Source: Candidatus Avirikenella pullistercoris (lineage in GTDB: Bacteria; Bacteroidota; Bacteroidia; Bacteroidales; Rikenellaceae). From it: a DNA stretch of 46,271 nucleotides. Shown piece after piece: positions 15,781 through 46,271 of the stretch. The position numbers were made by a program, and so were the translations under genes. The notes under the pieces were generated by a model. That model was given only the letters and a program-made list of their open reading frames with translations, made no database searches and was not told where the DNA came from. How positions within the stretch are numbered: the first letter of the stretch is position 1; each line of letters opens with the position of its first letter. Location: the NCBI GenBank assembly GCA_018710935.1, contig DVIX01000027.1, positions 1 through 46,271 on the forward strand, written 5' to 3'.

Positions 15781-15872
15781 TATCATTCGGTTTATTCTTT
15801 TTGCTTATTACAAATTATTCCGGGCACAAAACGACCGACCATAAAAGATACCACAACCTTAACATTAAAATT

Positions 15873-16907
15873 ATGCCTCTTTACCTTCCCAAAACTTACC
15901 GTGCTAAATTAGGACCGGAAACGACAGAGCAAGCGATTAAAATGCTCAAAGACACTTTTCAGACACTTTTATCCGAGGAGCTATGTTTACGCCGAGTTAC
16001 AGCTCCTCTTTTCGTCTTATCCGGAACAGGAATCAATGATGACCTAAACGGAAGCGAAAGAGCCGTCACTTTCCCAATCAAAGACTTAGACAACCGTAAA
16101 GCGGAAGTAGTACATTCACTTGCCAAATGGAAAAGGATGAAACTGGGAGAATACGATATCGCACCCGGTTACGGTTTATATACGGATATGAATGCAATCC
16201 GGGCAGATGAAGAATTAGATAATATACACTCCATATACGTGGACCAATGGGATTGGGAACGTACTATTCGCGAAGAAGATCGAAACCTTAAATTTCTAAA
16301 ATCAATCGTAAAAAAAATATACCATATTATCCGTGAGGTAGAACAAAAAACGTATCGTACATTTTCGCATATTACACCCATTTTACCGGAAGAGATTACC
16401 TTTATCCATTCAGAAGCTTTACTACAAGCTTATCCGCATCTTTCACCGAAAGAAAGAGAGAATGAAGCGGCCAAAAAATATGGAGCCATTTTCATCATCG
16501 GTATCGGTAGTACGTTATCCAACGGAGAAAAGCATGACGGACGGGCTCCGGACTACGATGATTGGTCTTCCGAAACTGAAAACGGATATAAAGGGCTCAA
16601 CGGAGATATCATTTTCTGGAATCCTATTCTAGAAAGTGCCTATGAAATATCATCCATGGGTATTCGTGTCAATAAAATAGCCCTAAAACGGCAACTGGAA
16701 ATTACCGGTAGCGAAAACAGGGAAAAACTCCTGTTTCATCAAGCTTTGCTAAATGATAAAATTCCCCTTTCTATCGGCGGAGGTATCGGACAATCACGGC
16801 TTTGCATGTTTTTCTTGCGATGTGCCCATATCGGGGAAGTACAGTCGAGTATCTGGCCGGAAACAATGATAGAAGAATGCCGAAAAAACGGTATATTTTT
16901 AAAATAA
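15873..16907 (+). CDS. asnA: Aspartate-ammonia ligase (asparagine synthetase A)
   Basis: A 344-residue class II aminoacyl-tRNA-synthetase-like enzyme making asparagine from aspartate, ammonia and ATP. Family blocks include APLFVLSGTGINDDLNG, VVHSLAKWKRMKLGEYD, YGLYTDMNAIRADEE, VDQWDWE, GKLEs-like positions replaced by the expected EEITFIHSEALLQAYP, and the C-terminal GGGIGQSRLCMFFL motif 3 region. The ATG at 15873 is chosen because it begins MPLYLPKTYRAKL, the usual start. An in-frame TTG at 15801 would add 24 unconserved residues. It is convergent with the DUF4301 gene. An aspartate ammonia-lyase gene lies at 29.9 kb. Confidence 0.96.
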   Translation: MPLYLPKTYRAKLGPETTEQAIKMLKDTFQTLLSEELCLRRVTAPLFVLSGTGINDDLNGSERAVTFPIKDLDNRKAEVVHSLAKWKRMKLGEYDIAPGYGLYTDMNAIRADEELDNIHSIYVDQWDWERTIREEDRNLKFLKSIVKKIYHIIREVEQKTYRTFSHITPILPEEITFIHSEALLQAYPHLSPKERENEAAKKYGAIFIIGIGSTLSNGEKHDGRAPDYDDWSSETENGYKGLNGDIIFWNPILESAYEISSMGIRVNKIALKRQLEITGSENREKLLFHQALLNDKIPLSIGGGIGQSRLCMFFLRCAHIGEVQSSIWPETMIEECRKNGIFLK

Positions 16908-16961: not shown

Positions 16962-18440
16962 TCAAAGGATAGCCTGATGAGCGGGCCTCAACAAATCGTT
17001 GATTGTTTTTACCGGATTAAACGTCGTAATCGGAACTTCGACGAACAAAGTCGTCCAATTCGCCATCGCACCATTCCATAGACCCGGCAATTCTTGTGCT
17101 TTCAGCGGTTTTCCATCTTGGGATTTCTGAGATATGAAACCGGTGGAAGGATCCGTATATCCGGTCAAATCGAATTTTTCTCCCCTGAAATTATTTACAC
17201 CGCACAATAAATCCACCGGATTAAAATGCGTAGCTTCTTTCATCAAATATTTTTTATCCGGAGCTATTTGCGATGATTCGGCAATCTGTAACGATTCTGC
17301 CCCATCCGATGCCGTAACCCAGAAAGGACCTCCTCCCGGCTCTCCTTCATTTTTCACCATACCGCATACCCTAATCGGACGATCCAATATTTTATACAAA
17401 TAGTCTCCCCGCTCTTTCAAAGAATATTTTCCGAACGACAACGGCAATTTATAACTAAGGTTCTTTTCGACAAAATGCGCTACTTCATCTATAAAATCCG
17501 AAGAAGAAACTTTTTTATCCCACTCTTTCAAATAAGCGAATATCTTATCTTGTACGGACAACAACACCCCCAACAATACCTTTTTATAACAAACCGTATC
17601 TTTTATCCGACATTCGACAGTTACATTATCCACCGTTTTAATATATATTACATCTGCCTCCAGCGCATTTAAATTTCCGATTAATGCGCCATGTCCTGCC
17701 GGGCGAAACAACAAAGTTCCATCTGCCGACCGAAACGGCTCATTATGTTCATCTACGGCAATCGTATCGGTAGCGGACTGTTGTTCCGAATAAGATATCT
17801 CATAAATTACCCCATAACGTTTTTCATATTCCGGCACCACACGTTCCGTTAATTTCTTAAAATCTTCACGATGTTCCGGCGAAACGGTAAAATGAATACT
17901 TACTCTGTCTCCTTTCCCTTTGGCATAAGCAGCCCCTTCTACCAAATGTTCTTCCAATGCGGTACGGCACTCTTCCTTATAACGATGGAATGACAACAAA
18001 GCTTTCGGTTTTTTCCCATAATTCAATCCCGGTTCTCCGATAATACATTTTACGATCTGCCTGCTTTCCTCATCTTTTTCAATATATTTCCGCAATTCCG
18101 GATAAAAAGCAAACTCCTCTATCCGGTTCAATACCTCTCCAACCGATGCCGATTCCTCTTTTCCCGATACATACCCGTACAAATCCTTAAACATACGGGA
18201 AGCAGCCCCTGAAGCCGGTACAAACTTGATAAAAGCCAACCTCCCCGATTCTTTCTCCGCTATCTCTACCATACGTTTCACTTCTTCCCCACTCAATCTA
18301 AAGATTCCATCGCTTACCGTTGCCGCCCGGGAGACTGGAAGGAACGGGAATCCCCGTTTAAAATTTTCTATTTGTGCTTTTACCTTATCTACGGATAATC
18401 CTTTTTCCTCAATTTGAGAAATATCTTTCTGGGTAAACAT
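16962..18440 (-). CDS. DUF4301 protein with sugar-nucleotidyltransferase-like motifs
   Basis: A 492-residue cytosolic protein belonging to DUF4301, which I know only as a Bacteroidota family without assigned function. Visible motifs are in the order expected of pyrophosphorylases of the GT-A fold. VPASGAASRMFK (74-85) resembles the G-x-G-T-R-M nucleotide loop. PKALLSFH (145-152) resembles the PK-A-L/M segment that follows it. FRPAGHGALIGNLNAL (245-260) resembles the UDP-sugar pyrophosphorylase GHG region, and DVIYIKTVDNV (263-273) its D-x-x-x-x-x-x-DN metal site. I infer a nucleotidyltransferase-like enzyme or a degenerate relative. Substrate unknown. It is monocistronic and convergent with asnA. 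Confidence 0.8.
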   Translation of the reverse strand: MFTQKDISQIEEKGLSVDKVKAQIENFKRGFPFLPVSRAATVSDGIFRLSGEEVKRMVEIAEKESGRLAFIKFVPASGAASRMFKDLYGYVSGKEESASVGEVLNRIEEFAFYPELRKYIEKDEESRQIVKCIIGEPGLNYGKKPKALLSFHRYKEECRTALEEHLVEGAAYAKGKGDRVSIHFTVSPEHREDFKKLTERVVPEYEKRYGVIYEISYSEQQSATDTIAVDEHNEPFRSADGTLLFRPAGHGALIGNLNALEADVIYIKTVDNVTVECRIKDTVCYKKVLLGVLLSVQDKIFAYLKEWDKKVSSSDFIDEVAHFVEKNLSYKLPLSFGKYSLKERGDYLYKILDRPIRVCGMVKNEGEPGGGPFWVTASDGAESLQIAESSQIAPDKKYLMKEATHFNPVDLLCGVNNFRGEKFDLTGYTDPSTGFISQKSQDGKPLKAQELPGLWNGAMANWTTLFVEVPITTFNPVKTINDLLRPAHQAIL

Positions 18441-18850: not shown

Positions 18851-19291
18851 ATGAAAAAGATTCTTTTTGTAATCGCATTATTGTTCGCAGGAATTGCAAC
18901 AGCGAATGCCAGCCCGGAACGTCCTATTACGATAGACCAACTGCCTAAAACGGCACAGGAATTTTTAGCGGCGCATTTCAAAGACCTGACCGTAGCATAT
19001 GCCGTAGCAGAACAAAAATTCACAGGAACCGAATATGAAGTAGTATATACGGACCGTACAGAAGTAGATTTTCGTTCAGACGGACAATGGGACAGCGTAG
19101 AACGCAAATACAGCGCTATTCCGGATTCCATCGTTCCCCAACAAATCAGGGATTTTGTCGCAAAAAACAATTATCCCGGACAATTCATTAAAAAAATCGA
19201 ACGCAATGCCTATACCTGGGAAATAGAACTCTCTTCCGACATTGAAATCAAATTCGATGTACATTTCAACGTAATCGACATCGACGATTAA
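18851..19291 (+). CDS. Secreted PepSY-like domain protein
   Basis: A 146-residue protein with a signal peptide (residues 1-21, MKKILFVIALLFAGIATANA then S). The mature part opens with ITIDQLPKTAQEFLAAHFKD and continues with two beta-alpha-beta like repeats, the second around IPQQIRDFVAKN-like residues IVPQQIRDFVAKNNYPG. This corresponds to the PepSY-like (formerly DUF2874) family of small periplasmic or surface proteins in Bacteroidota. Function is unknown, though the fold is related to protease-inhibitor-type PepSY domains. The mature protein is acidic. It is monocistronic, followed by an intrinsic terminator. Confidence 0.85.
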   Translation: MKKILFVIALLFAGIATANASPERPITIDQLPKTAQEFLAAHFKDLTVAYAVAEQKFTGTEYEVVYTDRTEVDFRSDGQWDSVERKYSAIPDSIVPQQIRDFVAKNNYPGQFIKKIERNAYTWEIELSSDIEIKFDVHFNVIDIDD

Positions 19292-19657: not shown

Positions 19658-20659
19658 ATGGTTCAAGAAAAGAACAAACAACTAAAAAGCCTCAATACTT
19701 TCGGTATTTCATGCTATGCCGACCAATATATCGAATTTACAGGAGCCGATGATCTTTATCATATATTCTCCCGCAACCTGCCGGAACAATGGCAAGTTCT
19801 CAGCGGAGGCAGCAATATCCTGTTTACCGGAAATTACAAAGGCACATTATTACACCCGACCGACAACAGTATAGAAATAATAGAAGATACACCCCATGAT
19901 GTTCTTATCCGGACAGGAGCAGGAACCGTATGGGATGACTTCGTACTCTATTGCGTAGAACATGAATTGTCCGGTGCGGAAAACCTCTCTTACATACCGG
20001 GTTATACCGGAGCGGCTCCGGTACAAAATATCGGGGCATACGGCAGTGAAGCCAAAGATATTATCGAAACCGTAGAAATATTCGACCTTTCGAAACTTTC
20101 CACCCGAAACCTTACAAAAGAAGAGTGCGCATTCGGTTACCGGGACAGCATCTTTAAAAATGCATTGAAAGGGAAAGCCATTGTAACCAACGTTTTTTTC
20201 CGGTTGCATAAAATTTTCACCCCAAATCTCTCATACAGCAACTTAGAAGAACGGGTAACCGCATTAGGCAATATTTCCCTGCAAAACGTACGCAAAGCCG
20301 TTATCGATACCCGGAAAGAAAAATTACCGGATCCGAAAAAAATAGGAAACGGCGGTAGTTTTTTCAAAAATCCGGTAGTAGCTCCCGAAATTGCAGAAAC
20401 TTTACAACGGCAATATCCCGATATGCCGGTTTATCAAACTGCTAACGGAGTTAAAATACCTGCCGGCTGGCTGATAGATAAAGCCGGTTGGAAAGGATAC
20501 CGGCGGGGAGATGCAGGCGTACATACCAAACAAGCATTAGTACTGGTAAATTATGCAAACGCCTCAGGACAAGATATTTTGACATTAGCAACCGATATAC
20601 GAAACGATATTCTGCAAAAATTCGGTATTGTAATTACACCTGAAATCAACATCTTATAA
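19658..20659 (+). CDS. murB: UDP-N-acetylenolpyruvoylglucosamine reductase
   Basis: A 333-residue FAD enzyme reducing UDP-GlcNAc-enolpyruvate to UDP-MurNAc with NADPH, the second committed step of peptidoglycan synthesis. FAD-binding features include LSGGSNILF (about 48-56) and the IPGYTGAAPVQNIGAYG block. The catalytic serine lies in NGGSFFKNP, and the terminal glutamate in ITPEINIL. It is the long E. coli-like (type I) form with the extra C-terminal segment HTKQALVLVNY. tilS follows after 17 bp, so the two probably form an operon. Confidence 0.96.
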   Translation: MVQEKNKQLKSLNTFGISCYADQYIEFTGADDLYHIFSRNLPEQWQVLSGGSNILFTGNYKGTLLHPTDNSIEIIEDTPHDVLIRTGAGTVWDDFVLYCVEHELSGAENLSYIPGYTGAAPVQNIGAYGSEAKDIIETVEIFDLSKLSTRNLTKEECAFGYRDSIFKNALKGKAIVTNVFFRLHKIFTPNLSYSNLEERVTALGNISLQNVRKAVIDTRKEKLPDPKKIGNGGSFFKNPVVAPEIAETLQRQYPDMPVYQTANGVKIPAGWLIDKAGWKGYRRGDAGVHTKQALVLVNYANASGQDILTLATDIRNDILQKFGIVITPEINIL

Positions 20660-46191: not shown

Positions 46192-46194
46192 ATA

Positions 46195-46271
46195 TCGGCG
46201 GCTACCTACTCTCCCACATAAATATGCAGTACCATCGGCGTTGATGAGCTTAACTTCTCTGTTCGGAATGG
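46195..46271 (-). rRNA. rrf: 5S ribosomal RNA, 3' part (truncated by the window edge)
   Basis: The reverse complement reads CATTCCGAACAGAGAAGTTA, then the loop E/helix IV region with GATGGTACTGC, then GTGGGAGAGTAGGT and a closing GCCGCC, all highly conserved 5S rRNA segments. About 77 nt are present, so roughly the first third lies beyond the right edge. The 23S and 16S genes should follow at higher coordinates, all read leftward. Confidence 0.93.

Follow-up and report, generated by a model that had tools for sequence, protein, structure and literature searches.

A DUF4301 protein of Candidatus Avirikenella pullistercoris with a predicted UDP-sugar pyrophosphorylase fold: a candidate nucleotidyltransferase of Bacteroidales

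The window analysed here is the whole 46,271-nucleotide stretch of contig DVIX01000027.1 from Candidatus Avirikenella pullistercoris. Positions 16962-18440 of the minus strand hold a single complete open frame of 492 amino acids, and stop codons are frequent throughout the plus strand. The encoded protein matches DUF4301 (PF14134) over residues 3-489 with an E-value of 6.1e-203 and 675.7 bits against a gathering cut-off of 27, bearing out the family assignment of the initial annotation. On the plus strand, asnA (15801-16907) is a convergent neighbour with no apparent functional link. Upstream of the DUF4301 gene and on the opposite strand lie a gene for a PepSY-like protein (18851-19291, plus strand), murB (19658-20659, plus strand, matched by PF02873 and by the NCBIfam murB model) and tilS. 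MurB uses a UDP-GlcNAc derivative, and the PepSY-like gene stands between murB and the DUF4301 gene in this genome only. A 5S rRNA at 46193-46271 is truncated at the end of the window.

In the Rikenellaceae clade, murB lies within two genes of the DUF4301 gene, on the opposite strand, at 8 of 9 loci, and MurB and TilS are its recurrent neighbours in that family. The recurrent neighbour is shikimate dehydrogenase within Prolixibacteraceae and RelA/SpoT within Bacteroidaceae. At the Bacteroidaceae loci L031-L035, L132, L142 and L145, the DUF4301 gene adjoins the RelA/SpoT gene in divergent orientation (annotated in L034). Outside Flavobacteriaceae, no neighbour kept across families was found. 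Gene neighbours say little about the substrate, apart from murB in Rikenellaceae and an operon in Flavobacteriaceae.

DUF4301, a family labelled ‘unknown function’, is carried by 66 of the 395 sampled Bacteroidota genomes (about one-sixth), essentially as a single copy; the only mention of it found in the literature searched is in a rumen metaproteome. Every one of the six genomes sampled from the window's order contains it, as does Bacteroides ihuae alone among 14 control genomes. By search and by tree, the closest relatives of the window protein belong to Rikenellaceae/Alistipes, with 54-57% identity, and the genomes of the same order cluster with Bacteroides and Bacteroidaceae in the DUF4301 tree. 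The family, which the initial annotation linked to Bacteroidota, is not confined to that phylum: scattered MAGs labelled Alphaproteobacteria (gut), Deltaproteobacteria and Desulfobacteraceae also carry the gene (loci L097, L101, L130 and L138). Each pair of these copies forms its own supported clade inside the Bacteroidota tree, and their presence may reflect gene transfer or mis-binning.

The AlphaFold2 model of the protein, built from a 33-sequence alignment, has a mean pLDDT of 92.1 and a pTM of 0.91. In a Foldseek search against the PDB, ranks 1-45 are all UGP or UAP structures, with E-values from 4e-12 to 6e-8, and the next match stands at 1e-3. The best VIA-align match is yeast Ugp1 (2i5k), with a DALI-scale Z of 22.9 over 320 residues and a model range of 1-492, followed by human AGX2 (Z 21.5, 343 residues), Leishmania USP (3ogz, Z 18.3) and GlmU (Z 16.2, 230 residues). 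Given the residue counts and range for Ugp1 and AGX2 as against GlmU, the structural match extends past the common GT-A core. VIA-align re-scores the matches of Foldseek itself, so the two are not independent of each other, and the sequence evidence is independent of both. A UGP/UAP fold over the whole protein, as opposed to an unrelated fold, is a well-supported prediction of the model. Only 14 residues follow K478, and the C-terminal left-handed β-helix of the UGP subgroup is absent.

A profile of 30 diverse DUF4301 members, searched against all PDB sequences, has a sole match up to an E-value of 10: the UDP-GlcNAc pyrophosphorylase 3oc9 (E 0.013), in an alignment covering the RPxGHG and DN motifs. 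A profile from a narrower DUF4301 alignment returned noise only, the diverse alignment being needed, and a single-sequence search of the PDB with the window protein gave no real match. Scanned singly, 12 of the 30 members match Pfam UDPGP (PF01704) weakly (best E 9.1e-5), and any other Pfam family is matched by at most one member. The window protein itself has no UDPGP match at E-values up to 1 and no NCBIfam match at 0.1, the GlmU and alt-GlmU models (TIGR01173, TIGR03991) included. In a six-frame search of genome G009, the UDPGP model likewise retrieves a DUF4301 gene. In the C-terminal third, hhalign aligns DUF4301 with two Bacteroidota UGPs at an E-value of 6e-5, pairing VExxQ, FNPVD and VPxxTFNPVKTxNDLL of DUF4301 with REAAQ, FNTNN and VPRARFAPVKTTDDLL of UGP. 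Relatives for a larger UGP alignment were sought in viral contigs, and none were found. The pure sequence signal between DUF4301 and UAP is real but faint, and the profiles back a UGP/UAP relation weakly but specifically. Together, the full-chain matches in Foldseek and VIA-align, the 3oc9 profile match and the weak UDPGP matches lend support to the UDP-sugar pyrophosphorylase-like reading that had been proposed for this gene.

The elements of the model follow one another in the order strand 70-74, loop, PK, strand 150-153, helix, strand 179-185, helix, strand 212-218, Q, GHG, helix, strand 264-267 and DN. The nucleotide-binding loop (FVPASGAASRMF, aa 73-84; 18189-18224, minus strand, as are all features below) follows the first strand and replaces LxGGxGTxxG. 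The PK segment (PKALLSFH, aa 145-152; 17985-18008) contains K146, predicted to bind the β/γ phosphates of UTP, and Q220 (17781-17783), located after strand 212-218, is the predicted uracil contact. The GHG loop (FRPAGHG, aa 245-251; 17688-17708), aligned to APNGHGG of UAP 3oc9, carries H250, with predicted binding of the sugar-1-phosphate, and the metal site (KTVDN, aa 268-272; 17625-17639) carries the predicted metal residue D271. The C-terminal half consists of a sugar-binding-loop (SB-loop) equivalent (CGMVKNEGEPGGGP, aa 359-372; 17325-17366), the segment QIAESSQI (aa 385-392; 17265-17288) with the putative sugar-binding E388, the sugar-site segment FNPVD (aa 406-410; 17211-17225), paired with FNTNN in UGP and FNAGN in AGX1, and FNPVKTINDLL (aa 474-484; 16989-17021), which holds the predicted catalytic Lys, K478, and is aligned by hhalign to FAPVKTTDDLL of bacterial UGP.

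Conservation was counted over 118 DUF4301 sequences. P75, A76, S77, G78, R82, M83, F84, P145, K146, Q220, R246, P247, G249, H250, G251, K268, D271, N272, C359, G369, G370, E388 and N407 are present in all 118; K478 is conserved in 117 of 117 with one gap, and V409 and D410 each in 116 of the 118. The four motifs described in the initial annotation lie at exactly the residues it gave (74-85, 145-152, 245-260 and 263-273), with their G and D positions intact in every sequence; because their key residues are invariant among relatives, they are not a product of chance. All four resemble their counterparts, the nucleotide loop, PK segment, GHG region and metal site, but an insertion of about 58 mostly helical residues (86-144) splits PASGAASRMF (75-84) from PK (145-146), whereas in known members the loop runs on into PK without a break. 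That N-terminal set was real yet incomplete, since the C-terminal half of the motifs (359-484: SB-loop, VExxQ, FNPVD and FNPVKTxNDLL) had been missed.

In A. nidulans UGP, uridine is contacted by L121, G123, G124, Q198 and G227, phosphate by K135, H228 and K403, Mg by D258, and the sugar by N256, E307, N329 and N331 (PMC10470519). The uridine site maps onto loop 75-78, Q220 (for Gln198) and G249 of DUF4301, the phosphate site onto K146, H250 and K478, the Mg site onto D271, and the sugar residues onto N269, E388, N407 and V409, with Val thus standing at the position of the second sugar Asn (N331). The C-terminal pairs of this mapping come from hhalign and the GHG and DN pairs from hmmsearch, and K146 and Q220 are placed by strand and motif order. 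K146 and K478 would likewise correspond to K127 and K396 of human UGP, and E388 to E303 of AGX1. Human UGP keeps at most 0.15% of its activity as K127A, D253L or K396A, and 0.011% as N251L (PMC5381698).

Of the 118 sequences, 117 have Asn at residue 269, the equivalent of human N251; the window copy alone has Thr (codon acg, 17634-17636, minus strand). The codon is two base changes away from an Asn codon, so T269 is not a single-base assembly error. T269 may mark an altered or weaker copy, or come from a faulty assembly of the site, and it is not representative of the family. The same copy reads GNLN where most of the family has ENLN, and on account of these two features the motif strings quoted in the initial annotation are partly atypical.

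The reaction is very probably an ordered nucleotidyl transfer giving a UDP-sugar and PPi. UTP, the likely nucleotide donor, would bind first through loop 75-84, K146 and Q220, and a sugar-1-phosphate, the putative acceptor, would bind second through H250, E388, N407 and the SB-loop (359-372). D271 would hold Mg, K146 would act on the leaving PPi, and H250 and K478 would act on the sugar phosphate, with K478 stabilizing the α and sugar phosphates until the UDP-sugar and PPi are released.

DUF4301 shares with UAP1/AGX1 (PF01704) the whole-chain fold, the GHG and DN motifs, a CG...EPxG sugar-binding loop, VExxxI and an FN segment. Its SB-loop (CGMVKNEGEPGGGP) is more like that of AGX1 (CGAKVVEKTNPTEPVG, EP-V-G290) than like the KGG loop found in UGP, in an alignment made by eye with a verified AGX1 sequence. 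Unlike UAP1/AGX1, to which it is 13% identical, DUF4301 is bacterial, has the loop PASGAASRMF with about 58 residues before PK, and reads FNPVD where AGX1 has FNAGN. With UGP (PF01704; yeast Ugp1, human UGP2), the best structural match, it has in common the catalytic K/H/D/K set and FxPVKTxxDLL around the last Lys, but it differs in the missing β-helix, an SB-loop without KGG, Val at the N331 position and the split nucleotide loop. Leishmania USP shares the fold, and DUF4301 is about 90 residues shorter. GlmU and alt-GlmU belong to the same nucleotidyltransferase superfamily and possibly catalyse the same reaction, whereas DUF4301 is a different family without the LbH acetyltransferase domain, the chain being too short after the catalytic core. 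Of the features that define PF01704, DUF4301 displays the whole-chain UGP/UAP fold and the Lys/His/Lys phosphate set with the metal Asp (K146, H250, K478 and D271); it is not filed there because it falls below the profile cut-off and lacks both the contiguous LxGGxGTxxGxxxPK loop and the C-terminal β-helix. DUF4301 would work as UGP and UAP do, yet stands as a variant outside PF01704.

The best explanation of these results as a whole, held with moderate confidence, makes DUF4301 a nucleotidyltransferase that acts on its own, depends on Mg and has the GT-A-like fold of eukaryotic UAP/UGP; more doubtfully, it may fill the GlmU uridylyltransferase step in Bacteroidales. Alt-GlmU (TIGR03991) exceeds its cut-off in 25 of 31 DUF4301 genomes; the remaining six, in which it does not, comprise the window genome and precisely the five others sampled from its order. 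In the window genome (90% complete), profile searches with NTP_transferase, GalU, UDPGP, PF12804 and TIGR03991 found no GlmU, alt-GlmU, UAP or UGP. Its PF00483 (NTP_transferase) matches are ManC-like, CDP-glucose and IspD enzymes only, and its four PF12804 matches, the best of them IspD (4.7e-12) and the other three weaker, include none at the strength expected of GlmU. Canonical GlmU is likewise absent from the PF12804 matches listed for 41 genomes of the order. Three long PF12804 frames (456, 513 and 539 aa) were considered as GlmU and rejected as an IspD-SDR fusion, another nucleotidyltransferase and, by eye, an XdhC-like protein.

The same genome contains MurB and two LpxA proteins, users of UDP-GlcNAc or a derivative of it. 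The LpxA-type UDP-GlcNAc acyltransferases lie at L231:537-1337 (267 aa) and L232:64-846 (261 aa). A missing GlmU has been noted in Bacteroidetes, where it was read as pathway loss or GlcNAc scavenging (PMC7725333), and in Tannerella forsythia (PMC5790795). Because GlmU and alt-GlmU are not found while LpxA and MurB are present, and a missing GlmU has been reported, GlcNAc-1-P would be the preferred acceptor in Bacteroidales. That UDP-GlcNAc is the main product there, from GlcNAc-1-P or another HexNAc-1-P, is a guess that leans to the doubtful side. The conserved murB neighbour in Rikenellaceae speaks for it, whereas the GlcN-1-P acetyltransferase that it would also require counts against it. 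Two further observations count against it and do not fit the main explanation: 25 of the 31 DUF4301 genomes keep alt-GlmU as well, and the Flavobacteriaceae proteins joined to a NadR-type kinase, next to PnuC, suggest a different pathway.

With the same fold and chemistry, the product could instead be UDP-glucose, or a broad range of UDP-sugars in a USP-like salvage, so that the gap filled would be one of UDP-Glc and not of UDP-GlcNAc; this is rather unlikely. The C-terminal motifs FNPVKTxNDLL and VExxQ are closest to UGP and yeast Ugp1 heads the structural list, but the EPxG of the SB-loop is that of AGX1 and not the KGG of UGP. GalU exceeds its cut-off in 5 of the 395 Bacteroidota genomes and full-length UDPGP is found in 2 of them, yet canonical GalE is common (51/61), as would suit a missing source of UDP-Glc; GalE is, however, equally frequent without DUF4301, which implies that most Bacteroidota supply UDP-Glc otherwise. 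A match to glycogen synthase (PF05693) is present in the window genome, but GT3 glycogen synthase and GalT fail to track DUF4301 across genomes. Two further proteins were observed in the sampled genomes. A 300-aa LAAGMGSRYGG nucleotidyltransferase of Bacteroidota (L185:1414-2313, G273) has no NCBIfam match at 1e-10 and is one more sugar nucleotidyltransferase of this phylum without an assignment, and a 650-aa protein (L230:997-2946, G394) with an N-terminal galactokinase-like (GHMP) and a C-terminal GalU-like domain is a candidate sugar kinase/pyrophosphorylase.

In Flavobacteriaceae, the gene belongs to an operon in the order thiamine-binding-like protein (Thiamine_BP), PnuC, NadR-type kinase and DUF4301, the last two overlapping or sharing one frame (eight read directly). 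DUF4301 frames exceed 650 aa in 22 of the 66 genomes. One-frame fusions of the NadR-type (ribosylnicotinamide) kinase with DUF4301, downstream of PnuC and the thiamine-binding-like protein, are present at L036, L045, L049 and L067 and in genomes of family f7, and at L069 (G084) the PnuC-DUF4301 pair is kept without the kinase. The concept of a sugar kinase fused to a pyrophosphorylase is familiar from FKP, the fucokinase/GDP-fucose pyrophosphorylase of Bacteroides, although the kinases are unrelated and the domain order is opposite. This arrangement suggests a UGP-fold nucleotidyltransferase acting, at least in Flavobacteriaceae, on a vitamin-type phosphate such as NMN from the fused kinase, and the GT-A nucleotidyltransferases CobY and MobA do act on cofactor phosphates. 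The proposal is nevertheless improbable: every solved UGP, UAP or USP relative uses sugar-1-phosphates, and the NadR-type kinase is over its cut-off in none of the sampled Bacteroidales. A narrower version, DUF4301 as an NMN adenylyltransferase replacing NadD, was demoted, since 30 of 31 DUF4301 genomes have a NadD above the cut-off and no NAD or TPP riboswitch was found at the eight Flavobacteriaceae loci searched. In the window genome, no NadD exceeds the TIGR00482 cut-off; a weak match falls on a 166-aa frame that is probably CoaD, and the incompleteness of the assembly (90%) may explain the absence.

A non-catalytic UDP-sugar sensor or regulator that merely keeps the fold would accord with a nucleotide loop unlike LxGGxGT and with the loss of the near-invariant Asn269 in the window copy, but it is highly improbable, as the catalytic Lys, His and Asp are all invariant across a deep tree, which is unexpected for a pseudo-enzyme, and the protein carries neither a DNA-binding nor a regulatory domain.

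In conclusion, the reading of DUF4301 as a UGP/UAP-like nucleotidyltransferase gives a concrete and testable chemistry to a family found in about one-sixth of the 395 sampled Bacteroidota genomes, and provides a named candidate for a reported hole, the synthesis of UDP-GlcNAc in Bacteroidales without GlmU. Tentatively, DUF4301 could have taken over the uridylyl-transfer half of GlmU once Bacteroidales had lost both GlmU and alt-GlmU, as an essential, lineage-specific step towards the cell wall and lipid A of bacteria that are dominant in the gut. If this is true, the published interpretation as loss or scavenging (PMC7725333) would be wrong, and gut Bacteroidales would possess a cell-wall enzyme of eukaryotic type.
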